From positions 1 to 45,027 of the IMG/VR virus record IMGVR_UViG_3300042890_004414: a stretch of 45,027 nucleotides of DNA; one strand, written 5' to 3'. The translations under genes were made by a program, and so were the position numbers. The notes beneath the pieces are model-generated. The model was not told the DNA's origin, did no database searches, and worked only from the letters and a program-made list of their open reading frames with translations. Positions 967-44,342 of the stretch are shown here, piece by piece (within the stretch, counting starts at the first letter, position 1; each line of letters opens with the position of its first letter). The stretch is from a virus.

Positions 967-1347
967 ATGGCAAATAATTTTAATTTTATAGATTTCTATA
1001 TCTGTTATCCAGGACATCCAATGTTTAAATTGGCAGAACTTATCGAAGATGACGTAATCAGAGTTATCATACAAAAGTATGAAATGATTATCTTTACTAA
1101 TAAAGGTGAAGTTTTAGGTGAGCCTAACTTTGGTGCTAATCTAACAGAACTACTACACGAAACTAGATTATCTGCGGAATCAATTGAAGGAGAAATAATG
1201 GCACAAATTGCTGATTATATACCAGAAGTAGATTCTGTTCCTTATGAACTATTCGTAGAATTTTTTGAAGATCCTGAAAGATACCAAGAATATATGGTTA
1301 TAAATTTTACGGTTTCTGATTATCAAGTTTATGCGACAGTAAGTTAA
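967..1347 (+). CDS. 25: Baseplate wedge protein, gp25/gpW family
   Basis: A 126-residue protein, close to the 132 residues of T4 gp25. Residues 41-65 carry the family signature, IIFTNKGEVLGEP followed by NFGANLTELLHE, matching the conserved FTxxGExxxxPxFGxxLxxLLxE pattern of gpW/gp25 domains. This protein sits in the inner baseplate wedge, binds the gp6/gp53-type core bundle and helps start sheath assembly. It follows the gp44 terminator and has its own octamer 4 nt before the ATG, so it is probably a separate late unit. Its stop overlaps by 3 nt the stop of the convergent SET gene. The remaining sequence is acidic, as usual for gp25. Confidence 0.88.
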   Translation: MANNFNFIDFYICYPGHPMFKLAELIEDDVIRVIIQKYEMIIFTNKGEVLGEPNFGANLTELLHETRLSAESIEGEIMAQIADYIPEVDSVPYELFVEFFEDPERYQEYMVINFTVSDYQVYATVS

Positions 1348-1790
1348 AGTCTATAAGAATTATTGTTCCAATAGTTTTCACCATATTCAACAAATATTTC
1401 CTCACCAGATTCTATATCTCTTGTTGCAACAAGAACAACATCATCACCATCCATTGAAATGATACAATTATTTTTAAAGCCAGTATTAGAACCCTCTGCA
1501 TCATTTGCATATTTTGCAAAACAATCAGTTTGTTTACAATCTAATATATCACCATTTGGTAGGTTCATGAAATAATCATCATCTCCTGATTCAGTTCTTG
1601 ATTTAATTTCTTCATCCGAAAGTATTTCTCCTTTAAAAATAGAAATAACCTCGTCTTTTTCAATATCAATTGCGGTGAATAAACCTCTTCCAGAATTAGG
1701 TATCTGTGAAGTTTCTACATATAAATAGTCTGATTCATCAGAATCAATTCTATCAAAATCAAAATTTTCAAAAGTTTTTAAGTATCTCAT
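1344..1790 (-). CDS. SET-domain protein (putative lysine methyltransferase) with capsid-targeting-like N-terminus
   Basis: This 148-residue protein is a minimal SET domain behind a short N-terminal tag. Residues 1-10 (MRYLKTFENF) belong to the shared MKxLKxFExF peptide. Residues about 30-38 (IPNSGRGLFTA) form the SAM-contacting GRG motif. IFKGE follows, then FAKYANDAEG with NNC as the substrate/knot region, ATRDIESGEEI, and the terminal VEYGENYW holding the conserved Tyr-Gly. The pattern fits small viral and bacterial SET proteins that methylate protein lysines with S-adenosylmethionine. It is the last gene of a leftward operon with three other tagged proteins; the spacer to the gene before it is 9 nt. 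The tag suggests (inference) packaging in the virion and delivery to the host. The target is unknown. Confidence 0.82.
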   Translation of the reverse strand: MRYLKTFENFDFDRIDSDESDYLYVETSQIPNSGRGLFTAIDIEKDEVISIFKGEILSDEEIKSRTESGDDDYFMNLPNGDILDCKQTDCFAKYANDAEGSNTGFKNNCIISMDGDDVVLVATRDIESGEEIFVEYGENYWNNNSYRL

Positions 1791-1799
1791 ATCTTTTAT

Positions 1800-2417
1800 T
1801 TATTTTATTGGACAATGATTTGCAGAGTAGATATATTTAAAATCCCTCTTTATTTTAACACCAAATGATTTAGCCGCAGTTTCAACATCTAAATAACACT
1901 CTGAATCAGAACCACCAACCATAACAACTTCTTGTCCTTTTAGTTCAGTGAATAGTTCTTGTAGTTTTTTCGGTAAATGATACCACTTATGATTATTTCC
2001 AATATAAATTATAAATGTACCTTCTTTAGTATTGAATGTATCACCTCTTTTTAATTCTTTATTAGACTCTTTTTCTTTTAAATCTTTATAAACATCTTTA
2101 CTTAAAATCTTTTTATAAAAATCCACATCTACATCATAGTTATATCTTTTCTCTATTAAATCTTTTTGATTAGGAAAACGATATAAATCGTTATGAACTG
2201 GAATATCTGGATTCTCATCATATAGATAATCTTTATCTACATTCTTACCATCGACGTGGTTATCCCAAATTTGATAGACTGATTCAAACTTCTTACAATA
2301 GTTTTTTAATTCATGTAAATACATTTCAGTAAAAAACTTTCTAAAAGACTTTTGAACATCAACAATTATCAATGTTTGTTTATCTTGAAAATTATCAAAT
2401 ATTCTCAAGTGTTTCAT
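1800..2417 (-). CDS. Isochorismatase/nicotinamidase-like cysteine hydrolase with capsid-targeting-like N-terminus
   Basis: A 205-residue protein starting MKHLRIFDNF, the shared virion-type tag. The isochorismatase-like pattern is visible: LIIVDVQKSF with Asp20, IEKRYNYD with Lys90 as candidate catalytic lysine, and VVMVGGSDSECYLD with Cys174 followed by VETAAKSFGVKI, matching the family's VxGxxTxxCVxxTAxxAxxxGxxV. An Asp-Lys-Cys triad is thus plausible. About 40 residues (roughly 105-150) are inserted between the Lys and Cys parts, and the usual cis-peptide segment is altered. Family members hydrolyse isochorismate, nicotinamide or N-carbamoyl compounds; the substrate here cannot be told. The gene starts directly after the stop of the 590-aa gene (0-nt spacer), so it is co-transcribed. 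Confidence 0.68.
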   Translation of the reverse strand: MKHLRIFDNFQDKQTLIIVDVQKSFRKFFTEMYLHELKNYCKKFESVYQIWDNHVDGKNVDKDYLYDENPDIPVHNDLYRFPNQKDLIEKRYNYDVDVDFYKKILSKDVYKDLKEKESNKELKRGDTFNTKEGTFIIYIGNNHKWYHLPKKLQELFTELKGQEVVMVGGSDSECYLDVETAAKSFGVKIKRDFKYIYSANHCPIK

Positions 2418-4190
2418 TTAGTCTAACATTGCTAGTTTTTTTCTAATAATTGTAATTATAGATTGAATACCATTATTTATATTACCATAATATTGTCTTC
2501 TATCTATAAGTGCTGGATATAAATGACGAACATCATTATAATAACTACCTGGACGCATTCTATCAAATAAACCATTTAAGTTAGTTATAGACATTCTATC
2601 AGATCTTAATAAACTTTTTATAGAATAAATCTCTTGTATTAGAAATTCAACATCCTCTAAAGTATCTACTTTGATTGATGAAATATATTTATTTATCTCT
2701 ATAGATAAGTTATCTATATTAGATAGTATTCTAAGATCTTTATCCGTCCAATCTTCATTAGTCTCTGCTTTAATTCTATCTTTAAGTTGTTTAAGTAATC
2801 TGTTTGTACTATCTACTTTTTTAATTGAATTATCCAATAAGCTTTTATATTTATCGTTAATAATAGTAATAATATCTATAAAGTCTCTATCCAGTTTTAA
2901 ATCTTCAACTGCTGTTCCTACTAATCCATCTTCTGCAGATTGATTATCTATTTTTTCTGCAGTTTTTATTTTTTTAATCATCTTAAAGATATAACCTGCT
3001 ATAGTTGACAGAGTATCCATTTCATTAGTACTTGCAGAATTATTTAAGAAGTACACACAAGATCTAGCACCAAGAGCTCTAATAGCCATACTAGTAAATT
3101 TACTAACATCTTGTAATTCTCCAGTTAGTTTAAAATTAGTGGCAATTTTATCAAAGTATCTTTTAATATTTGCTTTCTTTATATCATCATTAGATATAAG
3201 AGCAGTTGCACCTGCTCTTAATTCTGTTCTACCAGATTTTAATTCTGTTTTCTTTACAACTCCCAACTTCTCTAATTTAGAGAAGTCTAATATAATTGCA
3301 AAGTTTGCATCTTTCAATGTAGAAGCAACTTGAACAGGTCTAATACGGAAGTTAGACATATCAAATAATGTATTATATCCATAAGGATCTTGACCACCTG
3401 CATTAGCTTTAGCTTTTAATAAATTTATATTATTAACTCTGGATTGACTCATTTGCCAATATCTACCTGCTATTTGATTCCAACCAGTAGTTTCTCTAGG
3501 ATAGTTATTATAATAACTCGCAGTATTTTGTAATGCAAAAACCTTTGTTCCTGACCAAGTTTGAGCTTTCATAACATAACTAACAACTTGTGGATATAAC
3601 TCATTTCTCCAACCACCATTATTAACTAAGTCTAACGCAATAATATCACCTGTTTCAAGTTCATTTATACGCGACTTTGGAATTCTTTTAACTACATCAT
3701 AATCTACAAGATTTGGTGAGAATGTTGTTGCTGCGGTATTAGTTGATGCTCTATAAATACCATCTACTGCAGTTGTAGCAATATACTTACCTTCAGCATT
3801 AAACCAAAATTTAAGTAAAGATAAATCTGATCTTTTAGGCTTGATACCAGTACCTTTACAAGTACCACAATCAACAACTCTAAATCCTCTACCCCAAGGT
3901 CTTCTTACTTTACCGTTATCACATCTTTCACCATGAATAAACTCACCTACTGCACCACAAGGTTGGTCATCAGAAACAACATTGTTGAATCTCAATGCTT
4001 TATTAAAAGGCAAATAAGTAAATAAGTCATCTGTAAGTTTAGACTCAGGTATGTCAAATTTTTGACATACTGTTTTTAGATTTGATAAAAAGTTATTTTT
4101 ATCATCTTTTCCATTAATATGTTTAAGTGTTGCGTTAAGTGTTGTAGCATCAAATGCTTCAAATAATTTTATATATTTTAGATTTTTCAT
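2418..4190 (-). CDS. Large tagged protein of unknown function with a DnaJ-like half zinc motif
   Basis: A 590-residue protein with no family I recognise. It opens with MKNLKYIKLFEAF, a longer form of the shared tag with a possible LFE|A cleavage site. Residues about 78-120 hold four cysteines, the last pair as CGTCKGTG, which matches one CxxCxGxG repeat of DnaJ-type zinc domains. Residues about 400-590 are lysine-rich and helical. The middle is rich in Asn and aromatic residues. The start overlaps the end of the 567-aa gene by 4 nt (ATGA-type coupling). I infer a virion-internal or injected protein from the tag only. Confidence 0.72.
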   Translation of the reverse strand: MKNLKYIKLFEAFDATTLNATLKHINGKDDKNNFLSNLKTVCQKFDIPESKLTDDLFTYLPFNKALRFNNVVSDDQPCGAVGEFIHGERCDNGKVRRPWGRGFRVVDCGTCKGTGIKPKRSDLSLLKFWFNAEGKYIATTAVDGIYRASTNTAATTFSPNLVDYDVVKRIPKSRINELETGDIIALDLVNNGGWRNELYPQVVSYVMKAQTWSGTKVFALQNTASYYNNYPRETTGWNQIAGRYWQMSQSRVNNINLLKAKANAGGQDPYGYNTLFDMSNFRIRPVQVASTLKDANFAIILDFSKLEKLGVVKKTELKSGRTELRAGATALISNDDIKKANIKRYFDKIATNFKLTGELQDVSKFTSMAIRALGARSCVYFLNNSASTNEMDTLSTIAGYIFKMIKKIKTAEKIDNQSAEDGLVGTAVEDLKLDRDFIDIITIINDKYKSLLDNSIKKVDSTNRLLKQLKDRIKAETNEDWTDKDLRILSNIDNLSIEINKYISSIKVDTLEDVEFLIQEIYSIKSLLRSDRMSITNLNGLFDRMRPGSYYNDVRHLYPALIDRRQYYGNINNGIQSIITIIRKKLAMLD

Positions 4191-5890
4191 ATTACTGGTC
4201 CAACTATTTCTATTTTTAATCCTTTACTTCTAAGAGATGATATTATTGATTTACTTTCTTTAGTTACTAAATCTCCAGAAATTATCAATTTCTTTAGACT
4301 ATCTGATACAATTGATTTCAAATCTTCTGCAGAATCTAAAGTATATAATACTTGTAACTCTTCTAATGACTTGAATGTAGAGAAGTCAAAAGATCCAACA
4401 TTATCACAACTAATTATTTGTAGTTTTTTAATATTTGGATTTGACTTATTAATATCTTGTAAAACATCATTAGAAAATTTACATTTATCAAATGCTATAT
4501 TTGTTGTTTTGATATTATCAAAGTCTTTTAAAGTATGTATTTCAATGAATTTAAACTTAATCCAATCTAATGTGATATTTAAAGTTAGTAAACTATCTGG
4601 TATTTCAGTAGTTTCAATAATCAATTCTTTAATTCTTGCATTTGGATCAACTCTAACATTTTTCCAATTACCAATTTGACTTAAATATAATGTCTTAATG
4701 TTTTTACCAATCATCTTACCTTGAGTAAGTGATAATTTATCTTGATATGGTGAGTCTAATGCATCTTCAAAATCAATATCTGGAGTATATAAATATCTAT
4801 CACCTCTTTGACCAGTACTTACATTTTTACTATATTTAGTAACTATTTCTTCAAATTTATCTTGCATTCTATCTGGATAAGCTCTATCAAAATATAATTT
4901 TGTAGGAGCATTTTCTTCAAATGATTCTAGATTTCTAATAATCATTCTAGATAATGGTAAATGTTCTGATATTTTTTCACCTTCCCAGAAAATAGGAGTT
5001 TCAAAAATTAAAAATGCCGGTATACTATTTGGATCAAATACATTTGCCAAAACCTGACGACTATATCCACCACTATATAAGTGTTGACATGAAGAATAGA
5101 ATTTAGAAATAGACATATTTAAAATGTCTTTTGGATTATGACTAATTTTTAAGAAAATATCTTTATTAAAAATTTCAAAGTCTAATTTATATTGTGTATT
5201 CTCATTTGTTGCTGCAAAGTTTATAAAACTACCTAGGTTTCTGTTTTCGGAAAATAAATTTGATGATGCTATTTTATCCATAGTAGACCATCCTTCAACA
5301 TTTGCGTCAATACATTTATCAACTAAATCATTGTAATCTACAATGAAAGAGTTTATATTGATTAAGTTATTACTAAAAGCTAAATCACCGGGTTTCTTTT
5401 CAACTCTAATCATATTACCTTGTTCATCTCTGATTGGTCTATTTGATTCATCTTTAGAGATTACAGAAGTTGCCATTGTATCAGGAATTGATAGTTTTCT
5501 AAAAACTGAACTGAATATAGCAAGTATTTGATCTAATTTAGGTTTTCTAATATCAAATCCCTCAAAAATTCTTTCATATGTAGCTTTATCTTCTCTAAAT
5601 AGATCAGTATTGATAGATTGATTTAAAACATTACCAAATTGTTCTGGTAAACTTGAAAACAAAGTAAAAAGCTGTGGCATATCTGTTTGACAAAATACAC
5701 CTAATACATCATTCTTATCTTCTTCAGATAACTTCCAACTTCCTTGTATAATCTTATCAGTAGGTGTTACCTCTTCATAATCTAAGTATTTCTCTCCCCA
5801 TTTTGATATTACTGCTTTTGCTTGTCTTGGTAGAATAACATCACGTAATTTAGCTTCTAAAAAAAGATTTCTGTTTTTAATCCATTTCAT
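4187..5890 (-). CDS. Large tagged protein of unknown function, C-terminal leucine-rich-repeat-like
   Basis: A 567-residue protein, first in the leftward four-gene operon. Its N-terminus MKWIKNRNLFLEA combines the shared tag with a FLE|A site like the T4 prohead-protease site. Residues about 400-560 are a series of short strands with regularly spaced Leu/Ile (for example IKELIIETTEIPDSLLTL, LKKLIISGDL), resembling leucine-rich repeats as in many protein-binding effectors. The middle contains SSCQHLYSGGYSRQVLANVF; I do not recognise a catalytic family. An AATATATA octamer lies 28 nt upstream in the divergent spacer. The tag and a possible protein-binding fold fit a delivered effector, but this is inference. 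Confidence 0.72.
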   Translation of the reverse strand: MKWIKNRNLFLEAKLRDVILPRQAKAVISKWGEKYLDYEEVTPTDKIIQGSWKLSEEDKNDVLGVFCQTDMPQLFTLFSSLPEQFGNVLNQSINTDLFREDKATYERIFEGFDIRKPKLDQILAIFSSVFRKLSIPDTMATSVISKDESNRPIRDEQGNMIRVEKKPGDLAFSNNLININSFIVDYNDLVDKCIDANVEGWSTMDKIASSNLFSENRNLGSFINFAATNENTQYKLDFEIFNKDIFLKISHNPKDILNMSISKFYSSCQHLYSGGYSRQVLANVFDPNSIPAFLIFETPIFWEGEKISEHLPLSRMIIRNLESFEENAPTKLYFDRAYPDRMQDKFEEIVTKYSKNVSTGQRGDRYLYTPDIDFEDALDSPYQDKLSLTQGKMIGKNIKTLYLSQIGNWKNVRVDPNARIKELIIETTEIPDSLLTLNITLDWIKFKFIEIHTLKDFDNIKTTNIAFDKCKFSNDVLQDINKSNPNIKKLQIISCDNVGSFDFSTFKSLEELQVLYTLDSAEDLKSIVSDSLKKLIISGDLVTKESKSIISSLRSKGLKIEIVGPVI

Positions 5891-5918
5891 ATTAGTATAA
5901 TTATAATTTATTGTGATT

Positions 5919-5926
5919 TATATATT
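5919..5926 (-). promoter_or_regulatory. AATATATA octamer upstream of the four-gene tagged operon
   Basis: On the minus strand AATATATA lies 28 nt before the ATG of the 567-aa gene, the only such octamer for the operon running to 1344. It is a candidate late promoter. Confidence 0.4.
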
Positions 5927-6020
5927 AAAAAAAATTATCTTAAAAACATATTTTTTCATATATTTGTACAATCAATAAACAAACTAATAAAAAAACTATA
6001 TAGTTAAAAAAGATTTTAAT

Positions 6021-6287
6021 ATGGAAAAAGAAATAAGAACAGTCTTCAATGAAATTACATTTACAAACTTATGTAAAACTGGAACAGTAACACATGGTAT
6101 TGGTTATAATAAAACTGATGTTTATTTTACTAAGGAAGATGTAAGAAAATTAGCAAAAGGTGAAATGGTAACTAAAAATGAGAACGATCAAGTATTCTTA
6201 TATTTACTTCAAGATCTAGGAATTGAGTTGATTAAAGAGATAATTAGAAGATCTCCAATCTATGGTGAAATGTATTACGAACTTTAA
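6021..6287 (+). CDS. Small protein of unknown function, 88 aa
   Basis: This 88-residue protein is not recognised. It has no signal peptide or membrane segment and looks like a small soluble alpha/beta fold (TDVYFTKEDVRKLAKGE, then a helix LQDLGIELIKEIIRR). It opens a rightward operon of three genes; the next start is 11 nt after its stop. The 130-nt divergent spacer upstream is A/T-only apart from a few bases and contains TATATTTG at 5959-5966, which resembles the Bacteroidota -7 element TAnnTTTG. Host-sigma transcription early in infection is possible. Confidence 0.7.
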   Translation: MEKEIRTVFNEITFTNLCKTGTVTHGIGYNKTDVYFTKEDVRKLAKGEMVTKNENDQVFLYLLQDLGIELIKEIIRRSPIYGEMYYEL

Positions 6288-6298
6288 TAAAATTAAAT

Positions 6299-6808
6299 AT
6301 GACTGCAATTACAATACTACAAACTACAGTATTCGTACTATCACTATGTCTTTTAGGTTCACTACTAGGAATTGTTAAACTTTACTCTAAATGTGAAGAA
6401 ATAAGAGAAGAGAAAGACAAAATCACAAAAGAAAAAGATCAAATTAAAAAAGATAAAGATAAAGCAGATTCTTTTAGAAAAAATTTAATTTCTATAGAAC
6501 CTGGTCATAAAGTTATTTATCCAGACTATGGACTTAGTTGGACTGATACGGATAAAGATGGTAAAAAAATGAAACCAGAGTCTTTCAAAGTAACTTATGA
6601 ATTAGAAGTTCTAGAGGTAACTGAGTATAGGATCAAAGTCAAAGCAGTTGACTTTACATCAATGGATCAAATCGGAAGAGATGCTTCAAAAAAATCAGGT
6701 ATAATTCAATTTATGCAAGATAAATGGATAAATAAAAATGAGGTTCAACTTATAGTTGATGATTCTGTTAAAAGAAATCTTAAACTTGAACAATTAGGTA
6801 TAGAATAA
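6299..6808 (+). CDS. Membrane-anchored coiled-coil protein of unknown function
   Basis: A 169-residue protein. Residues about 4-28 form a hydrophobic membrane segment. Residues about 32-60 are a lysine/glutamate-rich coiled coil with a repeated EKDKITKEKDQIKKDKDK pattern. From about residue 68 the sequence becomes a strand-rich domain (HKVIYPDYGLSWTDTDKDG, then YELEVLEVTEYRIKVKAVDF), compatible with an SH3-like or OB-like barrel on the cytoplasmic side. It is reminiscent of phage spanin- or lysis-related membrane proteins only in layout; nothing specific supports that. Its TAA stop overlaps the next ATG (TAATG), indicating translational coupling. Confidence 0.68.
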   Translation: MTAITILQTTVFVLSLCLLGSLLGIVKLYSKCEEIREEKDKITKEKDQIKKDKDKADSFRKNLISIEPGHKVIYPDYGLSWTDTDKDGKKMKPESFKVTYELEVLEVTEYRIKVKAVDFTSMDQIGRDASKKSGIIQFMQDKWINKNEVQLIVDDSVKRNLKLEQLGIE

Positions 6809-7137
6809 TGAAAATAATTTACTTTGCTTCACCGTACTCAGATAACAATCCAGACGTTGTTACTGAAAGATATAATAAAACTTGTAATAAAGTCGCCGAA
6901 CTTGTATCACAAGGCCATATAGTTATGTCACCTATTGTATATGGTCACACTTTATTACAATATAAAGAAATGCCTGGTGACTGGCAATTTTGGAAAAATT
7001 TCTGTGAATCATTTTTATATAAATCAGATGAAATGTTTGTATATAAAATAGAAGGTTGGGATAAATCAACTGGACTTCTAGCAGAAGTTGAACTAGCGAA
7101 ATCACTAAATATTAAAATTACTTATTTAGAAGAATAA
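6808..7137 (+). CDS. DUF1937-like / nucleoside 2-deoxyribosyltransferase-like protein
   Basis: A 109-residue protein with the features of the DUF1937 group, which shares the Rossmann-like fold of nucleoside 2-deoxyribosyltransferases. It starts with a strand and ASPYS at residues 7-11, then ERYNKTCNKVAELVSQGHIV, SPI at 41-43, a Trp-rich stretch and GWDKSTGLLAEVE at 83-95, where the family has its conserved GWxxSxGxxxE. The related enzymes cleave or exchange the base of (deoxy)nucleosides or nucleotides; a role in phage nucleotide handling or in processing a signalling nucleotide is possible but unproven. The start codon overlaps the previous stop (TAATG). A strong terminator follows. Confidence 0.75.
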   Translation: MKIIYFASPYSDNNPDVVTERYNKTCNKVAELVSQGHIVMSPIVYGHTLLQYKEMPGDWQFWKNFCESFLYKSDEMFVYKIEGWDKSTGLLAEVELAKSLNIKITYLEE

Positions 7138-7138
7138 A

Positions 7139-7166
7139 AAAAGTCGAGATTGTTCTCGACTTTTTT
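7139..7166. terminator. Bidirectional rho-independent terminator
   Basis: The stem AAAGTCGAG / CTCGACTTT with a short loop is flanked by As on one side and Ts on the other, between convergent genes, so it can end both. Confidence 0.85.
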
Positions 7167-7674
7167 ATTTTAACTTTATCACTCTAATATTAGACTTATC
7201 TAAGTAGAATTCTTTTAAATTTTTATTCAATATCAATTTAGAGGATTTCTCACCGATCACAATTTGATTCTCAAACTCATCTGATAAGTAAACATTATAT
7301 CCTAAATCTTTAATATAAGTATCATATATATGATTAGAAGTGATTATCCAGTTATTTGATGTAAGACCATCTAATTCTTTTTTAAGTCGTTTATTTGACT
7401 TTAAATTGAATAATTTAGATACTATATTCTTTGGATAAAAATCCAGTTCTTTTGATTGACAATCAGACATTAGTTCAAACAAAAAAGTGTTAGTATCTTC
7501 CAAAGAAGTTACTAACAAATCTTGTAATTGATAAACTTCTACTTTATTTGAAGTTCTTATATTTCCATTTTCTTTAAAAGTCTCACTAATAGTAAATTCA
7601 ACTGGATTTTCATCCACCCAAATTACTTCATTAAAGTAAGATAATAATAAATATTCTATTGATTCAGTTTCCAT
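7165..7674 (-). CDS. Protein of unknown function, 169 aa
   Basis: A 169-residue acidic protein with no family I recognise. Residues about 25-60 look strand-rich; about 85-110 are a basic helix (LFNLKSNKRLKKELDGL); the end is again strand-rich. It is second in a leftward pair: its ATG follows the stop of the 165-aa gene by 2 nt, so the two are translated from one message and may function together. It ends at the bidirectional terminator. Confidence 0.65.
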   Translation of the reverse strand: METESIEYLLLSYFNEVIWVDENPVEFTISETFKENGNIRTSNKVEVYQLQDLLVTSLEDTNTFLFELMSDCQSKELDFYPKNIVSKLFNLKSNKRLKKELDGLTSNNWIITSNHIYDTYIKDLGYNVYLSDEFENQIVIGEKSSKLILNKNLKEFYLDKSNIRVIKLK

Positions 7675-8397: not shown

Positions 8398-9384
8398 ATG
8401 AAATGGATTAAAACTTATGAAGAACTAACACCTAAAATCTATAGAGATGCTGGACAAAGATTTATGTATATGCCTCACAAAGTAGATAAAGGTAAAAAGT
8501 TAAAAGATTACGGATCAGAAAAAGAATGGGGTGTTTATAATATTGAACTTGTTAAAAGTTATAGTGATTTAACTCATGAAGTTAAATTTACAAATCCTAA
8601 GGCAAAGTTTATTCTAAATGCGAAAACACCGGGTTCAAATGTAGTAAGTGATATTAATACAAGATATGAAGATATATCAGAAGAAGAAATGCTTGATCTT
8701 TGGAGTGATGCACAAAGAGAGTTATACTTTACAATACAATTTTATTTTGATCCATTAGAAGAAACAAAAACAAGAATTGGTAGTATATTGCCAGGATGGG
8801 ATGTTCCGTTATTTTCTTTTAAAGTAAATTTATCTAATTGGGATGATGGATTAGAAAGTTGGAATAGTCCAGATGATTGGGATGAAGAAGATCCACCAAA
8901 ACAATACACATTACAAGAACTTTATGATGATTGTAGTGAATTAAACATTAGTTTAAGACTTCCTCAAGCCAATCCAAAACAGGTATATATGCCAGCTGGT
9001 CAGGGATATCGTGATGTTTATTATTATGGCATATTCTCAGATAGAAATAGTGCATTTAAGTTTAAGAAATTACTACCAAGTCTTATAGATGATCAGATAG
9101 AAGGGGAAATTTGGAAGGTATTTTCATTATTAGGAGATTCTAGAAACTTCCAAAAATGTATTCATGCTTTAAAATATGGTATAAAAGTAAATCAGTTGTA
9201 TGATGATACGAAAACACTTAGAGGTTCAGCAGATTATAAAAACCCAAATAAATGGTTTCGTTATAGTATTGCAGATATACCAAGAGAATTACCTAAAAAA
9301 GAAGAAATTAAAGAAGAAGAGCCAAAACAATTGGAACAACCTAAGGAAGAGCCAAAATCAATGTGGTATCAATCAAGAACATAA
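8398..9384 (+). CDS. Tagged protein of unknown function, 328 aa
   Basis: A 328-residue protein opening with MKWIKTYEEL, the shared virion-type peptide. The body is rich in Trp, Tyr and Asp (WNSPDDWDEEDPPKQYTLQE, YGIFSDRNSAFKFKKLLPS). The last 40 residues form a Glu/Lys/Pro-rich tail (EEIKEEEPKQLEQ) ending in MWYQSRT, probably unstructured. No catalytic family is recognised. It stands alone between its own octamer and a terminator, so it is a single-gene unit. A virion-internal location is inferred from the tag only. Confidence 0.72.
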   Translation: MKWIKTYEELTPKIYRDAGQRFMYMPHKVDKGKKLKDYGSEKEWGVYNIELVKSYSDLTHEVKFTNPKAKFILNAKTPGSNVVSDINTRYEDISEEEMLDLWSDAQRELYFTIQFYFDPLEETKTRIGSILPGWDVPLFSFKVNLSNWDDGLESWNSPDDWDEEDPPKQYTLQELYDDCSELNISLRLPQANPKQVYMPAGQGYRDVYYYGIFSDRNSAFKFKKLLPSLIDDQIEGEIWKVFSLLGDSRNFQKCIHALKYGIKVNQLYDDTKTLRGSADYKNPNKWFRYSIADIPRELPKKEEIKEEEPKQLEQPKEEPKSMWYQSRT

Positions 9385-15325: not shown

Positions 15326-15607
15326 CTACTGTTGTTCCTGTAAAGAAATTATAATTTTATCTAAATTCTCTTTAGTAAATCCATTTAGTGGACCACCACC
15401 TGCTTTTAGATAATCTTGATATAGTTGATTATAATCATCTAGTGTATAAATTGTATTATTTATATCACTAAAAATTACTGAGGTATCTGATGAACTTATT
15501 GTATTATTATCCAATGGAGTTGTTCCAAATCCCATACCCATTTCTGGACCAACTAATTCAGTACCGCTTACTTCATTTATAAAGTTATCAAATGTTTTAA
15601 TCTTCAT
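15326..15607 (-). CDS. Small tagged protein, 93 aa, closest match to the T4 capsid-targeting sequence
   Basis: A 93-residue protein starting MKIKTFDNFINEVSG. This is the tag closest in form to T4 MKTYQEFIAEA: a basic start, aromatic residues, FIxE, then a small residue (FINE|V), so cleavage by a gp21-like protease after Glu12 is predicted. The rest is Gly/Ser/Thr-rich, then a short helix with a possible partner-binding segment (LDDYNQLYQDYLKAGGG). No family is recognised. Its start lies inside the last codons of the 154-aa gene (11-nt overlap), so the two are coupled. A virion-internal protein is the best guess. Confidence 0.66.
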   Translation of the reverse strand: MKIKTFDNFINEVSGTELVGPEMGMGFGTTPLDNNTISSSDTSVIFSDINNTIYTLDDYNQLYQDYLKAGGGPLNGFTKENLDKIIISLQEQQ

Positions 15608-27532: not shown

Positions 27533-27540
27533 AATATATA
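27533..27540 (+). promoter_or_regulatory. AATATATA octamer upstream of the 192-aa tagged gene
   Basis: Plus-strand AATATATA, 18 nt before the ATG at 27559. Together with the leftward copy it gives each divergent gene its own element. Confidence 0.42.
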
Positions 27541-27558: not shown

Positions 27559-28137
27559 ATGAAGTACTTAAAACTATTTGAATCATTTTCTGGTAGAATA
27601 TCAGAAAATCTACAATATCACATTGATAATAATAAACCTATTGTTGAAAATGTGTTTAGACCTGGTTCTAATCAATACTTTAACTTAATCAAAGAAGCTA
27701 GAGAACTATATGATAATAATCAAATTGAATTGTCTGAATTAGATACTGAATTATTTGAATCAACTGATATAGGTAGATTTGCAGAATATGAAGGAGTAAC
27801 AGTTCCATTAGATTTACCAATGGAAACTATTGAAGAATTAAACGAAGCAGAATACCAAGGTAGAGAAGTTAAGTTAAATTATCCAATGAGAGGTGGTACT
27901 AAGAAATATCAAGTTTTTGTTAAAAATCCTAAAACAGGTAATGTCAAAAAGATTGCATTTGGTGATGTACACGGTGGCTTAACTGCTAAAGTAAGTAATC
28001 CTAAGGCAAGAAGTTCTTTTGCGGCAAGACATAAGTGTTCAACTAAAAAAGATAGAACTACGGCAGGTTATTGGGCTTGTAGAATAAATAAATATGGACA
28101 TCTGTGGGGTGGACGTACGTACCCCGGCTTCTGGTAA
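27559..28137 (+). CDS. Tagged protein with a conserved phage C-terminal basic Cys/His/Trp module
   Basis: A 192-residue protein. Residues 1-10 (MKYLKLFESF) are the shared virion-type peptide with an LFE|S site. After an acidic middle, residues about 110-192 form a basic module: KKYQVFVKNPKTGNVKKIAF, then ARSSFAARHKC, TKKDRTTAGYWACRINKYG and a final TYPGFW. I recognise this from many large marine and T4-like phages as a short conserved domain of unknown function; the His/Cys pair and second Cys could bind metal or nucleic acid. It heads a three-gene unit (tagged, tagged, cupin). DNA binding inside the capsid would fit the charge but is inference. Confidence 0.75.
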   Translation: MKYLKLFESFSGRISENLQYHIDNNKPIVENVFRPGSNQYFNLIKEARELYDNNQIELSELDTELFESTDIGRFAEYEGVTVPLDLPMETIEELNEAEYQGREVKLNYPMRGGTKKYQVFVKNPKTGNVKKIAFGDVHGGLTAKVSNPKARSSFAARHKCSTKKDRTTAGYWACRINKYGHLWGGRTYPGFW

Positions 28138-28152: not shown

Positions 28153-28545
28153 ATGAGATATTTAAAAGAATATAAAATTTTTGAATCTACAAACAAAAAA
28201 TTCATCAATGATTTTTTGTTTGATTTTGGTATGTTGATAACAATGGGATTTTCACAAATAACCAAAATGGGTGTTGATCAAAAAGCAACAGATGAATTGA
28301 GTTCTATGATGAAAAGACTTAGAGAACCTCTTATAAATGGGAAAACATATGCAGAACTAATTGATAATCTTAGTTTATTATATAATAATCCTAAAATGTT
28401 ATCTGCATTTATAGGACAAATAAGAGAACTTCTACTATATGTTGAACCAAGAGTTAAAAACTATGTAAAAGATTGTGATGTAAAAGATAATTGGTTAGGT
28501 AAAATTGATAAATTCAAAGAAAGATATAAAGAAATAGTAAACTAA
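28153..28545 (+). CDS. Tagged helical protein of unknown function, 130 aa
   Basis: A 130-residue protein starting MRYLKEYKIFES, the shared tag with an IFE|S site. The rest is all-helical (DELSSMMKRLREPLINGK, FIGQIRELLLYVEPRVKN), with a Phe/Met/Gly-rich stretch at about 20-40. No family is recognised. It starts 15 nt after the 192-aa tagged gene, and its stop overlaps the cupin start (TAATG). Probably packaged with its neighbour, by inference from the tag. Confidence 0.7.
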   Translation: MRYLKEYKIFESTNKKFINDFLFDFGMLITMGFSQITKMGVDQKATDELSSMMKRLREPLINGKTYAELIDNLSLLYNNPKMLSAFIGQIRELLLYVEPRVKNYVKDCDVKDNWLGKIDKFKERYKEIVN

Positions 28546-37244: not shown

Positions 37245-37826
37245 CTATTTTTGATTAACATTAGATATTTTTTTGATATATTCGGTCATATCTGAACCCA
37301 TCTTGTTGATTTTAGTAGTATGTTCTGCAAAACTTTTATTAAAATCATTTTGAACCTGTGTCAATTTCGGAGTTCTATCCGTAATTCTTTTATTTACATC
37401 CGCGATTTTTTTAGCAATGACTAATTTTTGTGCGGGATCATTACTCTTATTAGCATCTAAATCTTTTAACTCTTGATTAAAATCATCAATGAATGCTTTA
37501 TCATATACATTTTGTTGTTTCATTGATTCTACATCTGCTTTTAACTTTGCCAAATGTGCATATTCTACCAAAAAAGGATTTCTATCTTTACCATTCTGTA
37601 TATCAGTACCACCTAGTATTTCCTTTAATTTAGTCTCAATTTGAGTAGGATCTTTTACTTCTAAGTATAACTTATCAATTAAAGATTTCTTTGTCTTATA
37701 CTCATCTAAATTAAGTTTCATAGTATTCATACCATCCTTTGCTATCTTAACATCAGGAGTATCTGTAGCCTGAACATCAAATTCGGCTTCTTCTAAAAAC
37801 ATAACATATTTTTTTAAATGTTTCAT
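37245..37826 (-). CDS. Tagged coiled-coil protein, 193 aa
   Basis: A 193-residue protein starting MKHLKKYVMFLEEAEFD, the shared tag with an LEE|A site much like T4 internal proteins. The rest is a long charged helix set with heptad character (KTKKSLIDKLYLEVKDPTQ, FIDDFNQELKDLDANK), ending in IKKISNVNQK. A coiled-coil, scaffold-core-like or internal head protein is plausible. Its start touches the stop of the 908-aa tagged gene (1-nt overlap), so both are made from one message and may be packaged together. Confidence 0.7.
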   Translation of the reverse strand: MKHLKKYVMFLEEAEFDVQATDTPDVKIAKDGMNTMKLNLDEYKTKKSLIDKLYLEVKDPTQIETKLKEILGGTDIQNGKDRNPFLVEYAHLAKLKADVESMKQQNVYDKAFIDDFNQELKDLDANKSNDPAQKLVIAKKIADVNKRITDRTPKLTQVQNDFNKSFAEHTTKINKMGSDMTEYIKKISNVNQK

Positions 37827-40552
37827 TATATTGTGTTTATTTTAGCACCCGTTACAATGGCTGCCTTTATATCACTTTTTATTCCTGCTTTATTAAGAAT
37901 TCCATTAAACTTAGTTCTTTGTTCATCAGATAGTTTATATAGTTCACCATCATCTACTTTATTAAGTGTATAAACATTTGTTATCTGTATATTATTCACT
38001 TCAGATAAAGCGCCCTTTGTATCTTGTGTAGTCATACTTAACTTCTGATTAGATTTTAATTTCTTAAAATCTTCAACAGTTATTTTAGTGTAATAAAGTT
38101 CACCTCTTGTATCATTAGTTAAGTTTTTTGAAAAATCACCTTGACTAATTTCATGTTTTGGTTCCAAAGAATCTAAATAAGGATTAAATCTTTTCAAATA
38201 TGTTGTACCAATAAGCCAAACTTCGCTAGCAGTAATTTGATCTATAAAGAATGTTCTTTGTACTGATTCATCAAAAACATCAGGTTTTGAAGCATCTTTA
38301 GGTCTCATACCCTCTATCGTAAAGAATATATTTTTATCCGGTGTAATGGTACTTTGTTTTTTTAATTCTAATTTAACTGAATTTGCTGCAATAGCTGTAG
38401 CATTTTCACCACATTCTACTAACGCCGCAGAATCAATATCAGTTCCAGCTTTACCTTCACTAACAGTACCATCACCAAAATATTTCTCAATAAATGTAGC
38501 AACCGCACCTGTTGTAGAAGCGTTTTTATATAATGTATCACCATCTAAAACATCATTGATAAATTTTCTAAATGACGCACCTGCTTTAGGCTTAATAGTC
38601 CAATCTTCTGGGTTAGCAGGATCTGGATCTGTTACTTTCGGTAATCTTAAATTTGCATTATCAGTAAAGATTGCTTGGTACTTACGGTCTTTTCTTATAT
38701 TATTTACCGCTTCTTCCCACATATCAAATAATTTGTTATTTCTATAAGGACCTGTTTTACCACCATCTTCACCTGATTGACCAAATGATGTATATTCAGA
38801 TAATGTATTTGTATCAACGGCCTCTGTTCTCTTAGTAATAGTTTTAACAGTATAAATCTTATACGCTTTAATGAATAAATTCATAATTGCAATAATTGGA
38901 TCTATTGTCATCTCTATTTTTTTACCATCTTCTGTTTTTACTTGATCTATTTTAGTTTGTATAGACTTTCTTTCTTCATCAGAAACAGTATAAGCTCTTA
39001 CTTCAATACAAGTCTTATTAAAAAACTCTAATATTTTTGCAGAAACGTCATCAACGTTATCTTTATTATCATCCTTTCCTTGTGTCTGTGATGCAGTTCC
39101 AGTAGTTGTAGGTTTATTATCATCACCACTTGGTGCTGCTTGTCCACCACCTTGATTATCTAAAATATTTTTAGCTTCTAAGAATGAATAGTAATCAAAT
39201 AAAGACTCTTTTTTAGCAGTAACTATAGGTAATTTATTTATTTCTCTCAATGTTGTTACAAACGTTTGTAATGGAACTTTTAGATCACCTAAACCACCAT
39301 ATAAATTCTCTTTCTCAAATTGAAGAGCTCTTTTAGAAAATCTTGCAATTTTCTCAGCAACAACTACAATTTTATTCTTATCATTTAATACTTCAATACC
39401 CTCAGTATAAAGTTTATCCTTTTCTTGTATTGTTGCTTTTTTATCACCAACCAAATATCTATTTATCTCATTATAAAGATTTTTTATAAGTTCTTTATTA
39501 CTAGTATTATTTGAATTTGTAGCAATATCATTGATAAATTTATAATCAACACCAATTCCCTTTTCTTTTGTAGAAATTAAAACTTCAATATCTTTTTTCA
39601 ATTTATTGAATGCTTGAGTTAAATGATCTTCACCTGCAACTACAGTTCCTCTGTTTGCAGACCCACCTGTTCCAATTGTATCTACAGTTGCCTCCATAAC
39701 AAGTGTAATACCTGCAGCCATAGTAATATTATCCTGTTTATACTTATCTAATTTGCCAGGATTTTTACTTCTAATTGTAACCGTATCTAATTTATTAGGG
39801 TTTATTTTAGGGTTATTTTGGATCTTAACCAAAGTATCTCCCGCAACAGTAATATATGTACTTATTGGTTTACCAGTTTTTGTAGAGGTTGATACTTTAG
39901 TATTGACCTTTGTATAGTTAGCCAAAATTAAAGCAAGTGCTTTTAAATTTTTAACCATCGTAACATATCCAGTACCAGCGGCACCAGTATCAGTAGATTT
40001 ATCAGTAGATTTATCAGTAGAATCTTTATCATCCTCTTTATCCTCTTCGTCATCATTTGAACCCTGATCATCTTTAAATTGATCTAAAAACTCTCTAAAT
40101 TTCTTCAATTCTTCTAAAAGAACTGCTTTTTTATCAAACTCTGCCATATCAGTAACTCTTTTAATACAACCATCAGTCAATCCTTTTAGAATACCAACTT
40201 TGAAATTATTTTCAACCGCATATATTAATTCTTTAAAGAATACATCTAGTTCTATTTGAATTACTAATTGTTGATCCTCTGAGGATAAACTATAAATTTT
40301 AGCTTGTCCTACAATTTGTTCAAACTCATCTTTTAATTGACTAATTAAACTTTTTATTCTTGGAACCTTTGCAGCAATTCTTGCTTTTCTAATAACATGA
40401 TTTATTAAACGACCTAATAAAGAGTCATTCCAACCTACATCATTTGCAAATGGACCAGCATTTGAGGCCACCTCTAATAATGTTTCATATGGAACTCCTT
40501 GTATATGTTGTTTCTTCTTTAAGAAATCTTCTCTTTTGTTTAAATATCTCAT
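37826..40552 (-). CDS. Large tagged protein of unknown function, 908 aa
   Basis: A 908-residue protein, the largest with the tag-like start (MRYLNKREDFLKK). Residues about 150-200 contain an acidic linker with a short DKSTDKSTD repeat; another low-complexity linker (Gly/Gln/Thr-rich) lies at about 460-510. Between and after the linkers are helical and mixed domains, including VWLIGTTYLKRFNPYLDSLE near residue 790. I do not recognise a catalytic family. Size, multi-domain layout and tag recall T4 Alt, a packaged enzyme delivered with DNA, but no ADP-ribosyltransferase motif was found. It leads a two-gene unit under a TATATATATA element. Confidence 0.7.
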   Translation of the reverse strand: MRYLNKREDFLKKKQHIQGVPYETLLEVASNAGPFANDVGWNDSLLGRLINHVIRKARIAAKVPRIKSLISQLKDEFEQIVGQAKIYSLSSEDQQLVIQIELDVFFKELIYAVENNFKVGILKGLTDGCIKRVTDMAEFDKKAVLLEELKKFREFLDQFKDDQGSNDDEEDKEDDKDSTDKSTDKSTDTGAAGTGYVTMVKNLKALALILANYTKVNTKVSTSTKTGKPISTYITVAGDTLVKIQNNPKINPNKLDTVTIRSKNPGKLDKYKQDNITMAAGITLVMEATVDTIGTGGSANRGTVVAGEDHLTQAFNKLKKDIEVLISTKEKGIGVDYKFINDIATNSNNTSNKELIKNLYNEINRYLVGDKKATIQEKDKLYTEGIEVLNDKNKIVVVAEKIARFSKRALQFEKENLYGGLGDLKVPLQTFVTTLREINKLPIVTAKKESLFDYYSFLEAKNILDNQGGGQAAPSGDDNKPTTTGTASQTQGKDDNKDNVDDVSAKILEFFNKTCIEVRAYTVSDEERKSIQTKIDQVKTEDGKKIEMTIDPIIAIMNLFIKAYKIYTVKTITKRTEAVDTNTLSEYTSFGQSGEDGGKTGPYRNNKLFDMWEEAVNNIRKDRKYQAIFTDNANLRLPKVTDPDPANPEDWTIKPKAGASFRKFINDVLDGDTLYKNASTTGAVATFIEKYFGDGTVSEGKAGTDIDSAALVECGENATAIAANSVKLELKKQSTITPDKNIFFTIEGMRPKDASKPDVFDESVQRTFFIDQITASEVWLIGTTYLKRFNPYLDSLEPKHEISQGDFSKNLTNDTRGELYYTKITVEDFKKLKSNQKLSMTTQDTKGALSEVNNIQITNVYTLNKVDDGELYKLSDEQRTKFNGILNKAGIKSDIKAAIVTGAKINTI

Positions 40553-41207: not shown

Positions 41208-41236
41208 AAAACCAGGTAAATAACCTGGTTTTTTTT
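41208..41236 (+). terminator. Rho-independent terminator
   Basis: AAAACCAGGT / ACCTGGTTTT stem with a 5-nt loop and a T run. The T run merges into the next gene's TATATATA. Confidence 0.87.
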
Positions 41237-41243
41237 ATATATA
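41236..41243 (+). promoter_or_regulatory. TATATATA octamer 5 nt before the 165-aa tagged gene
   Basis: TATATATA, then CTCAT, then the ATG at 41249, directly abutting the preceding terminator. Confidence 0.5.
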
Positions 41244-41248
41244 CTCAT

Positions 41249-41746
41249 ATGAAAAACTTAAAAACATATGAGAATTTCTCAGGTAAAATAAAATATACTA
41301 AACCCGAAGACTTAGATACACACGAAGTTATCGAACTAATCAATATTTTATTTGAGCTAAAACCTAGTTTACCAGATGAATTTCCAAAAGCAGACTTGTC
41401 AAAACTAATTAAGAATGAAGTAATTTATTCATCGGATGATGATAGATTTAATATCAAAGTAGGATTTAGTGAAAATGATACGTATGTAAATAAAGAAGGT
41501 GAATTGGTAACAGGTAAGTATAAGACTATATTTAGAGTAAATATTAGTAGAACAGAAAAAGAAAGTTTTAAAATATCAGAAGTTAAAGAATATATTCTTT
41601 TAACATCACAATTAGTTGAGAAAACTTATGATAAAGTTAAAATGTTAGTTAGAATAAAAGAAGAAAAATTATCAATAGAAGAGTTTGAAGAATTATCAGA
41701 TAATGATGAAGTTGAAGAAGTAACTTTTCTTATAAAAATATTATAA
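41249..41746 (+). CDS. Tagged protein of unknown function, 165 aa
   Basis: A 165-residue protein opening with MKNLKTYENFSGK, the shared tag. The remainder is acidic, with strands (RFNIKVGFSENDTYVNKEGE, YKTIFRVNISRTEKESF) followed by a helix pair and an acidic end (IEEFEELSDNDEVEEV). No family is recognised. The unit is bounded by a terminator on each side and has an octamer 5 nt before the ATG. Confidence 0.7.
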   Translation: MKNLKTYENFSGKIKYTKPEDLDTHEVIELINILFELKPSLPDEFPKADLSKLIKNEVIYSSDDDRFNIKVGFSENDTYVNKEGELVTGKYKTIFRVNISRTEKESFKISEVKEYILLTSQLVEKTYDKVKMLVRIKEEKLSIEEFEELSDNDEVEEVTFLIKIL

Positions 41747-42700: not shown

Positions 42701-42705
42701 GTACT

Positions 42706-43554
42706 ATGAACGCACACTTCTTTGACCTTAATAGTCTAATAACAATGAATAGTAAAGTTTGGATAGTAAATACCCGAACTCCTAATAAACCTTTGATAAG
42801 AATATCAAAGTCTGAATTTAATCTTTTAAGAAAAGGTGTTTATAAAAAGGATAATATAAACTTTAATATAGATGGACAAACTTATTGGCTAAGTGAAGAA
42901 CTTTTTAATAAGATTAAAATTAAATCTAAAAATAATAATGTAAATATATCAGAACTTTCTTTCTCAATGCAAGAGTTTATGAATAAAGATATTATTGAAA
43001 ATGGTGACTTTACAATCCATTTAGAAAATATTAGACATCTTAAAAATAGTCAAGATGATATTTATGTTATTTGTTCTAAAAATTCTAAAAGAAGTTATGA
43101 ATCACTAATTGAAAAATTAGAAGAAAAACTATTAGATTTTGGTTTAAAAATAAAGAACTTCTACTTCATATCAGAAACATTCTATAACAGAGATAGAGAC
43201 GATATAGTACACAAAAAAGTAAGATTGGTACTCCAACATATAATTGGATTAAAGACCGCGGATACGAAGTTTACAGAAGAAGAAATAACTAAATATGATC
43301 AAGTTTCTTTATATGATGATGACACCAATACTATTAAGTTAGCAAAAGGAATCAATGATGTACTTCAATTTCTAGTAAAGAATAGTGATGATGAAGTAAA
43401 AGAGAAAGTAAAAGAGGTACTTAAAATGGAAGAATGTGAATTGATTATAAATCAAGTTACATTTAATAAAGTAAATACATTTATTACAACAAAAGTAGAA
43501 TTAAATCTTTATAAGATTGTAAGAACCTTTGAAAATTTTAATTATAAAAAATGA
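42706..43554 (+). CDS. Protein with HAD-like C-terminal half, 282 aa
   Basis: A 282-residue protein. Residues about 115-215 resemble the core of a HAD-type phosphatase as seen in phage proteins: a strand with a Ser-containing loop (IYVICSKNSKRSYESLIEKL), a helix, a strand (IKNFYFISETFYNR), a helix with a conserved Lys (HKKVRLVLQHIIG) and YDQVSLYDDDTNTIKLAKG in the place of the acidic DD motif. The first catalytic DxD is not seen, so it may be inactive. The N-terminal 90 residues are a separate small domain. The stop overlaps an ATG (ATGA at 43551-43554) just before the ParB-like gene. Confidence 0.6.
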   Translation: MNAHFFDLNSLITMNSKVWIVNTRTPNKPLIRISKSEFNLLRKGVYKKDNINFNIDGQTYWLSEELFNKIKIKSKNNNVNISELSFSMQEFMNKDIIENGDFTIHLENIRHLKNSQDDIYVICSKNSKRSYESLIEKLEEKLLDFGLKIKNFYFISETFYNRDRDDIVHKKVRLVLQHIIGLKTADTKFTEEEITKYDQVSLYDDDTNTIKLAKGINDVLQFLVKNSDDEVKEKVKEVLKMEECELIINQVTFNKVNTFITTKVELNLYKIVRTFENFNYKK

Positions 43555-43556
43555 TT

Positions 43557-44342
43557 ATGAAGTATTTAAAATTATACGAAGAGTTTGTTAGTAAAGAAAC
43601 TAAAGTAAATTGGGGAGAAGCCGAACTTGAGATCAAAGAAATGTTTAGAATCTTTAAAGAGTTAAAACAACTACCAAGTGAATTGATTGTCGATGGTGAG
43701 AAATTTACTATAGATAAATCTATCTTCAATCTTGATGAACCTAAAGAGTTTGAAACACAAGTAGATGATATAAATGGCAAACACACAGATACTTCAAAGA
43801 TTGGACCAACTGCAGACGAAATTCTATCAATGAAAGAGTTGACAGTTAGTGACAAAAAGGTAGATGCAAAACCTTATTACGATTTTATTAAATTTTGTAA
43901 GAAGGTATTTTGGAAAGGTCAGAAAGTTCAATTAGATAAAACAACAATTCAAAAGTTAGCGGATGATTCACAATCAATAGGTAGAGGTGAATTTTCAAAT
44001 TTCATAAAAGATGCCAGTGAGTATCAAAGATTATCAAAAGCTTATGATAACACTATGACTTTCTTGAAAGAAAAAGGTGCAGAAGATAAATTTAATACTA
44101 CTGGCTTATTTAGTAAGTACCCTGACATCAATAAAAAAGACTACAATGACGCGGTTCATTACTTTGACTACTATGGTAAATCTTATTTATTCTTTGAAGA
44201 ACAAATAAGGAAAGGTGGTAAAATGCCAATAACATCGGCAATTGAAATTGAAGGAAAATGGTATATTGTTGGTGGTAATAGAAGAATGAGTTTTTATGTA
44301 TTAAGTGGTATAGACCCAGTGATATGGCTTACTAAGCTTTAA
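43557..44342 (+). CDS. Tagged protein with ParB/sulfiredoxin-like C-terminal domain
   Basis: From the ATG at 43557 it starts exactly with the shared tag (MKYLKLYEEF); an ATG two codons earlier overlaps the previous stop and would mask it. Residues about 215-261 read MPITSAIEIEGKWYIVGG, then NRRMSFYVLSGIDPVIWL, matching the ParB/Srx-type pattern (IxxxxYxIVxGxRRxxAxxxxGxxxxxV), known for CTP/ATP or DNA-linked roles. The middle (about 100-200) is helical and lysine-rich. It is one of the few tagged proteins with a recognisable domain; DNA-related action after delivery is possible. A terminator follows. Confidence 0.72.
   Translation: MKYLKLYEEFVSKETKVNWGEAELEIKEMFRIFKELKQLPSELIVDGEKFTIDKSIFNLDEPKEFETQVDDINGKHTDTSKIGPTADEILSMKELTVSDKKVDAKPYYDFIKFCKKVFWKGQKVQLDKTTIQKLADDSQSIGRGEFSNFIKDASEYQRLSKAYDNTMTFLKEKGAEDKFNTTGLFSKYPDINKKDYNDAVHYFDYYGKSYLFFEEQIRKGGKMPITSAIEIEGKWYIVGGNRRMSFYVLSGIDPVIWLTKL

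Follow-up and report, generated by a model that had tools for sequence, protein, structure and literature searches.

The window analysed here is a stretch of viral DNA of 45,027 nucleotides, and it raises the question of why twelve proteins encoded in it begin with similar residues. In a sequence-only reading, the shared peptide was taken as a capsid-targeting address that loads proteins into the phage head. All twelve open reading frames were recovered at their positions with the quoted first residues (Table 1). The leader consists of 10–14 residues, M-[KR]-x-[LI]-[KR]-x-[FY]-x-x-F, and ends near h-x-E/[SAN], where the slash marks the predicted cut. According to a position-specific score (PSSM) trained on the tag, with a cut-off of 9, the tag is strong in ten of the twelve proteins (10.9–27.3), but it is weak in those at 8398–9384 and 37826–40552, which fall below the cut-off. 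The strict motif is present in 7 of the 45 window genes, against 0.02 expected when each N-terminus is shuffled.

Table 1. Features of the window; W01 and W02 are the gene prefixes of two relatives (see text).
Feature	Coordinates	Strand	Observations
SET-domain protein, tag MRYLKTFENF	1344..1790	-	Tag codons 1761–1790; PSSM 21.8; SET Pfam E 8.5e-14, residues 34–137; tag retained in orthologs at 64–97% identity
Tagged protein MKHLRIFDNF	1800..2417	-	PSSM 15.8; family of 3 (W01, W02 included), tag in all; no significant profile match of the body in Pfam or PHROGs
Tagged protein MKNLKYIKLFE/AF, 590 aa	2418..4190	-	PSSM 13.6; site LFE/A; homologs in W01 and W02
Tagged protein MKWIKNRNLFLE/A, 567 aa	4187..5890	-	PSSM 10.9; site FLE/A; W02 homolog MKWILPRNRFINE/AKLRDV
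Weak candidate MKWIKTYEEL	8398..9384	+	PSSM 7.7 (below cut-off); without site
93-aa protein MKIKTFDNFINE/VSGTELVGP	15326..15607	-	PSSM 12.3; closest T4-like form in the window
Promoter-like box AATATATA	27533..27540	+	About 26 nt upstream of ATG of 27559
Tagged protein MKYLKLFESF...ISE/N	27559..28137	+	PSSM 22.1
Tagged protein MRYLKEYKIFE/S	28153..28545	+	PSSM 27.3; site IFE/S
Tagged protein MKHLKKYVMFLEE/A (Y-x-x-F-L-x-E/A)	37245..37826	-	PSSM 21.0; tag in all three genomes
Weaker tag MRYLNKREDFL...LLE/VAS, 908 aa	37826..40552	-	PSSM 8.1; W02 ortholog 11.5
Promoter-like box TATATATA	41236..41243	+	Directly before ATG of 41249 (leaderless type); hairpin and T-run precede box
Tagged protein MKNLKTYENF	41249..41746	+	PSSM 20.6; nearby site not found
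Tagged protein MKYLKLYEEF	43557..44342	+	PSSM 24.3; longest ORF start 43551

The window groups with the 634–642 kb Mahaphages LR745206 and LR756502, whose genes carry the prefixes W01 and W02; the hosts of these tag-bearing giant phages are Bacteroidota. A motif search in the two complete genomes revealed a far larger cohort than the twelve proteins noticed before. The tag is located on about 99 of 915 genes in LR745206 and 122 of 943 in LR756502, with about one expected by chance, so that about 100–120 genes per genome (11–13%, roughly one in eight) have the leader. The strict motif is found in 30 of 915 and 41 of 943 genes, against 0.25 and 0.22 expected. The Mahaphage consensus is MK[YH][LI]KxY-KIFES, and it retains the grammar of T4, in which aromatic-x-x-aromatic serves targeting and [IL]xE serves processing. 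This grammar is observed in 68 and 78 genes of the two relatives, compared with about 5 in shuffles, and its strict T4 form in 24 and 27 N-termini, at a density 7–8 times that elsewhere. In T4 IPIII, residues 4 and 7 serve targeting, and residues 8 and 10 serve processing (PMC9026906). In the orthologs of the 93-aa protein, MIKKFYQFINE/ISGTE (W01) and MAIKSFKSFNEE/VSGTE (W02), the tag and the junction are both conserved.

The tag is spelled by many codon variants, and synonymous codons vary at most positions, which indicates conservation at the protein level and not at the DNA level. This variation argues against the reading that the N-terminus serves translation initiation or expression, as an A-rich start of leaderless mRNAs, and is not a protein address. 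Such an element would fit the enrichment of tagged genes for a TATATA box no more than 16 nt from the ATG (21/35 versus 37/294 in W01 and 24/37 versus 48/303 in W02, for gaps of at least 40 nt; p about 1e-9), and early AAA is favoured in AT-rich genomes. However, many tagged genes lie inside operons with an upstream gap of less than 10 nt (42 in W01 and 50 in W02), neither the E/S site nor the conservation of residues 7, 10 and 11 is explained, and the peptides of other lineages differ while their grammar is the same. We regard an expression element as very improbable. The tag-specific position of the box is only that directly before the ATG. Boxes like AATATATA precede the portal, protease and MCP genes of W01 and W02 at about -30; a late-promoter box as proof of co-expression with the head genes was rejected, because the -30 box is not tag-specific (16% versus 17% in W02).

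At the end of the tag, a prohead-protease-like site, h-x-E/[SAN], is present in 52% and 46% of the tagged proteins of the two relatives, selected blind to the site, compared with 3–4% inside the same proteins and 8–10% in untagged proteins. Asn occupies P2 in 43% (background 7%), and Ser occupies P1' in 39% (background 8%). In about half of the tagged proteins, no such site lies within 18 residues of the tag core. Most of the twelve proteins were earlier said to carry an [I/L/F]xE site; an h-x-E-[SANGEV] tetrapeptide is located near the tag in eight of them. In the window alone the frequency (22–33% versus 9–13% inside the same proteins, n=9) is not significant, but in the relatives it is. The predicted sites of the leaders match those predicted for the protease in capsid and scaffold proteins, namely at the MCP junction and in the protease/scaffold protein. 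The junction between propeptide and mature MCP can be aligned, across the tag, with two tagged proteins, W02_80294 and W01_93266 (E 7e-8, 4e-7 and 6e-7). The MCP of PAU, the one protein for which N-terminal data were found among the relatives compared, is processed N-terminally by experiment within one residue of the matching LME/N (PMC5646251).

A gp21-type protease gene, suggested as something to look for outside the window, is absent from the 45-kb window itself and present in the Mahaphage relatives, where the protease is fused to a scaffold with about 11 tandem repeats Y-S-E-Y-[IL]-A-E-N, corresponding to the T4 targeting motif. The Peptidase_S77 matches in the two relatives (E 1e-4 and 2e-5) are under the curated cut-off, and the W02 protease, encoded at 225272–227371 of its genome, matches phrog_207 with E 6e-28. 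The protease is also found in eight other tag-bearing records. The fusion is the most site-rich protein of the genome (p about 1e-14 and 1e-13; the next about 1e-2 to 1e-3), and it is the only protein with 11 internal copies of [FYW]xx[FY][ILV]xE. Scaffold repeats occur in eight more large phage records, seven of them with 10–12 copies and LR756500 with 2. Alternatively, the tag might send its proteins to a destination other than the head, for example the membrane or a compartment built by the phage, or it might be a docking motif recognised by a shared partner, with head packaging absent in either case; an N-terminal address by itself does not prove the compartment, and some cargo proteins are enzymes useful in the cytoplasm. 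However, the protease-site signature, the MCP-junction homology and the scaffold-repeat match together point to the prohead as the destination, and another destination seems quite improbable.

The capsid-targeting reading agrees with all the sequence tests that were run, and on these grounds the shared N-terminus is probably a capsid-targeting propeptide like the T4 CTS, removable by cleavage; we propose this with considerable confidence. In the proposed mechanism, the leader would mimic one scaffold repeat during prohead assembly, co-assemble with the core and bring the body inside. Then the protease would cut the scaffold, the MCP propeptide and the leaders after Glu, and the bodies would become free in the head. 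We infer that the tagged proteins are present in virions and injected into the host; the freed bodies would leave the head together with the DNA and exert their effects at an early stage in the next host.

According to BLAST, the 233 tagged bodies fall into 196 families, 164 of which have a single tagged member, and the column identity after the tag is 5%. The same bodies are found elsewhere without the tag or with another leader. The body of 27559–28137 is 52% identical from residue 18 to a protein of Flavobacterium phage immuto starting with MIRLQEIVGLP. A pattern search for the alternative leader EQxxKMKKLMGL gave no further members. The proposal of a modular address on unrelated bodies is supported. 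By the same family counts, it is hardly credible that the shared N-termini are mere remains of one expanded paralogous family, even though several W02 tagged proteins are similar by eye (DIxxELxDDG-like segments) and adjacent tagged genes are over-represented. In the AF2 model of a tagged LYHG-family protein, the tag is predicted to be disordered (pLDDT < 50) and the first strand begins at residue 17; this model rests on a wider alignment, as the initial model was poor (pLDDT 58). The PDB sequence search with this family gave just weak, irrelevant matches. Relatives of the LYRG protein were not confirmed in viral_contigs. A tagged ORF that resembles the LYRG protein is present in L108. Among the body labels given earlier, SET is supported by Pfam, but 'hydrolase', 'ParB-like' and 'LRR-like' found no support in Pfam or PHROGs searches, nor did the first two in PDB sequence searches.

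By profile or fold, the cargo types include an ADP-ribosyltransferase-like fold, the SET protein, NUDIX hydrolases, an HNH nuclease, a 2'-5' ligase/Acb1-like protein fused to an exonuclease, and a CCA-adding-type enzyme. PADLOC matches among the tagged proteins are few, and weak to moderate in strength. Cytoplasmic replication proteins, on which the tag would speak against a head address, are mostly clean, as 2 of 68 T4-homologous core genes are tagged; however, a Toprim/primase-like fragment and the CCA-adding-type enzyme are tagged. These two and the homolog of one T4 gene, which we take to be nudE, resemble ordinary cytoplasmic enzymes. The tag might also mark core or scaffold components of the prohead that are consumed in assembly and never delivered to the host. 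Among the tagged proteins, some are small, conserved or similar to the MCP arm (15326–15607, W02_80294 and W01_93266), and gp21 cuts T4 gp22 and gp67 into fragments (PMC9026906). However, the bodies are mostly lineage-specific, several are recognisable enzymes, and internal sites are few outside the scaffold. Consumption in assembly is thus considered unlikely.

The T4 CTS system (IPI–III and gp21) likewise uses a short N-terminal leader on unrelated bodies, with aromatic-x-x-aromatic and [IL]xE/A, and an S77 protease. T4 cargo includes counter-defence proteins and the ADP-ribosyltransferase Alt (PMC9026906, PMC12373910). The Mahaphages differ from T4 in the leader consensus, in the fusion of the protease to a scaffold of tandem leader-motif copies, and in the number of candidate cargo genes, as T4 has only a handful; more than 100 candidates, many times the T4 number, count against head loading. 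The exact Mahaphage tag pattern has no match in T4, PAU, PTm1, MA9V-2 and MaF61. By blind N-terminal clustering, from which PTm1 was left out, MKTYQEFIAEA of T4 was recovered as a positive control (the coordinates match ipII/ipIII), and tag dialects were detected in PAU, MA9V-2 and a 735-kb phage, with none in MaF61. In Chryseobacterium phage MA9V-2, about 5 proteins are predicted cargo. The T4 MNYxxIYNxL N-termini, which may belong to paralogous homing endonucleases, also form a cluster; thus N-terminal clustering by itself is insufficient. In Sphingobacterium phage PAU, MK[TS][LI]xxLYE[AS] is common to 19 genes, several of them in the head cluster and two annotated as 'internal capsid protein'; PAU differs in the leader dialect, in separate protease and scaffold genes, and in a much smaller cohort. 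SPN3US and phiKZ resemble the Mahaphage proposal in mass protein delivery and in their large number of head proteins, several of which a T4-like prohead protease cleaves after Glu (PMC5694885). Their propeptides, however, are mostly long (> 100 residues), lack a common short address and are cut at A-x-E, whereas the Mahaphage leaders have 10–14 residues, with Asn or Phe at P2 and Phe, Ile or Tyr at P3.

The mechanism is already known from the T4 CTS, and the Mahaphage case is a greatly expanded variant; no earlier report was found. We cautiously favour the view that Mahaphage heads are preloaded with about a hundred different proteins, encoded by about one gene in eight, by mimicry of one scaffold repeat. 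This would be a general modular delivery system, in which a promoter-plus-leader cassette turns any gene into virion cargo. If so, the largest known phages carry a big protein payload, and candidate injected effectors could be listed from sequence by the tag in genomes whose genes mostly lack an assigned function. The use that huge phages make of their additional genes would become a testable question. The finding would also suggest that larger genomes go with more head loading and that the T4 CTS works by copying a scaffold motif, and it would offer short programmable leaders, with a matching scaffold and protease, for protein delivery.

The window, a 45,027-bp IMG/VR contig with 28% GC, belongs to a myovirus and carries genes for T4-like gp25, tail tube, tail sheath and clamp-loader. 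When 24 kb of the window was searched against 50,697 phage records, only two DNA relatives were found, W01 (LR745206, 634,780 bp) and W02 (LR756502, 642,428 bp), with 72-78% identity over the aligned parts. Mahaphages of 634 and 642 kb have Bacteroidetes as predicted hosts (Al-Shayeb et al.; PMC7162821). The window lacks the head module and on its own has too few tagged genes for the site test; the whole W01 and W02 genomes were the test ground, with crude gene calls from a simple ORF caller.

All twelve ORFs claimed in the sequence-only reading to share an N-terminal leader (the tag) begin as described, and by position-specific score ten tags are strong and two are weak. Beyond the window, the tag is abundant throughout both genomes. 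The strict motif occurs at 30/915 gene starts in W01 and 41/943 in W02 (shuffled expectation, 0.25 and 0.22), and the cut-off score of 9 or more is reached by about 99 genes in W01, about 122 in W02 and 10 in the window, where ~1 would be expected. Synonymous codons differ at most tag positions, which places selection at the protein level. The bodies after the tag are indeed unrelated (196 families, 164 with one tagged member); in 96 aligned tagged proteins, MKxLKxYxxFE is followed by 5% mean column identity. Of the 414 W01-W02 pairs that are reciprocal best matches, both partners carry the tag in 20 and one partner does in 23; several of the partners scored as 'untagged' have degenerate leaders such as MIKKFYQFINEISGTE. 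Tagged genes are clustered: adjacent pairs number 27 in W01 and 52 in W02, where 11 and 16 would be expected. Clusters in accessory regions (e.g. W02 10-81 kb) resemble cargo hotspots.

For the site test, genes were chosen solely by the residues preceding the site, and h-[NFKL]-E-[SANE] was sought within 18 residues. It follows 52% of tags in W01 and 46% in W02, about half being without a site of this form, whereas it occurs in 3-4% of internal windows of tagged proteins and 8-10% of untagged N-termini. Asn occupies P2 in 43% (background 7%), and Ser occupies P1' in 39% (background 8%).

The tag end is, as judged by alignment, equivalent to the propeptide junction of the major capsid protein (MCP). 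A tagged W02 protein, MKHLKNYKSFNE/DATANASTAGMGGV (a slash marks the predicted cut), aligns through the tag with the W01 MCP, MSEYAEFHSINE/NAYANASNVSGMGAV (50% identity, E 7e-8). A tagged W01 protein likewise aligns through the tag with the MCP (E 6e-7). In an alignment of ten relatives and T4 gp23, the Mahaphage INE/N falls beside LME64/N65 of PAU. By N-terminal sequencing, the PAU MCP is cut down from 585 to 520 residues (PMC5646251), which places the processed N-terminus at most one residue from LME64/N65. Small proteins with an MCP-like N-terminus, which either duplicates the mature N-arm (NE..GMG..GSGD) or is a truncated version of the MCP start, are possible capsid-arm mimics in two lineages.

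A gp21-like protease was sought elsewhere, and a 699-aa W02 ORF adjoining the portal and MCP genes is a member of phrog_207, a family of head maturation proteases (E 6e-28). After the protease domain it has about eleven 14-residue repeats, N-I-S-Y-S-E-Y-[IL]-A-E-N-L-D-K, whose core Y-S-E-Y-[IL]-A-E matches Y-Q-E-F-I-A-E of the T4 leader. Because this part is repetitive and lies behind the protease domain, it is probably a scaffold. For h-[NA]-E-[SNA], the tag-end signature, the protease ORF ranks first in both W01 and W02 (13 sites, p 1e-14; 12 sites, p 1e-13), the next-best protein reaching p about 1e-2 to 1e-3. Every other protein contains [FYW]xx[FY][ILV]xE internally three times at most, and the motif is 7-8 times denser at gene starts than in the remainder. 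These repeats recur in eight further records of large phages, LR756500 having 2 copies and the other seven 10-12. Targeting by the T4 leader depends on its residues 4 and 7, and its processing on residues 8 and 10 (PMC9026906). The tag keeps both pairs, as Y-x-x-F then [IL]-x-E; they overlap in Y-K-I-F-E/S and are separate in F-D-N-F-I-N-E/V.

The tag is a modular add-on. One tagged body recurs in Flavobacterium phage immuto behind a different N-terminus. The tagged LYHGNRKGDF family has 67% body identity in four contigs (L253-L256), where the leader, MNLQEQTYKMKKLMGLKELTLE/N, is unrelated to the tag and possibly another head-targeting dialect. In its AF2 model (pLDDT 83), residues 1-14 are disordered and the fold starts at residue 17. 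The best PDB matches, MbcT, RES toxin and AcrIF11 (Foldseek probability 0.75-0.94, E 0.02-0.09), are suggestive of an ADP-ribosyltransferase fold. T4 Alt is both a head protein and an ADP-ribosyltransferase. By profile, the cargo includes SET (window), NUDIX, HNH, a CCA-adding-type enzyme and a 2'-5' ligase/Acb1-like plus exonuclease fusion. An HExxH motif resembling that of zinc proteases occurs in several different tagged proteins, and none of those scanned matched Pfam significantly. Tagging of replication proteins had been named as evidence against head delivery: T4 homologs are mostly untagged, but 2/68 in W01, W02 and the window carry the tag.

Positions of individual features
Sequence	Position	Feature
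Window	15326-15607	Separate targeting and processing pairs
Window	27559-28137	Body 52% identical in immuto from residue 18
Window	33096-37184	Tail sheath protein, unusually long (1362 aa); sheath-like part at C-terminal end
Window	41236-41248; upstream of 42706	TATATA box
W01	93266	Tagged, aligns with MCP
W02	80294	Tagged, aligns with MCP
W01 (within L005-L069)	291407; 554784	MCP-like N-terminus
W02 (within L005-L069)	542908	MCP-like N-terminus
PTm1 (L158)	12178-13011	ORF-299, MCP-like N-terminus
W01	252909; 372795	Tagged, HExxH
W02	108263; 221232; 347493	Tagged, HExxH
Melnitz-3 (L240)	3808-8471	Neighbouring genes with leaders

Blind N-terminal clustering recovered the T4 MKTYQEFIAEA pair as positive control, presumably ipII/ipIII from the coordinates. 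It also found dialects in PAU (MK[TS][LI]xxLYE[AS], 19 genes) and MA9V-2 (MKTFxxFINEA, 5 genes), and none in MaF61. The 735-kb phage LR756501 has the dialect MIKxFxxFIxES: in its first 400 kb, two or more N-terminal neighbours were found for each of 84 gene starts (6 when shuffled). Most of these starts read MIKxFxxF[IL]xE[SA], which resembles the T4 leader even more than the window's Mahaphage form does. About 70 other IMG/VR contigs also contain the Mahaphage form; large contigs have 2-33 copies each, and the reversed pattern gives 0-1. In Melnitz-3, a T4-like Methylophilales phage, leaders such as MQGFKTFLSEA and MKKFSEIIEA look like a further short series.

Throughout W01 and W02, TATATA ends a few bases 5' of the ATG in many genes, above all tagged ones, sometimes directly after a hairpin and T-run. 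This suggests leaderless transcripts from compact terminator-promoter-gene cassettes.

Address, site, matching protease/scaffold and modularity are established at the level of sequence. A literature search excluding most subscription journals found no published description of such a tagged cohort in huge phages. A tagged protein would co-assemble with the prohead core through scaffold mimicry, its tag would be cleaved in the prohead, and the cargo would be ejected along with the DNA. By analogy with the internal proteins and Alt of T4 (PMC12373910, PMC9026906), a payload for counter-defence and host takeover is plausible.
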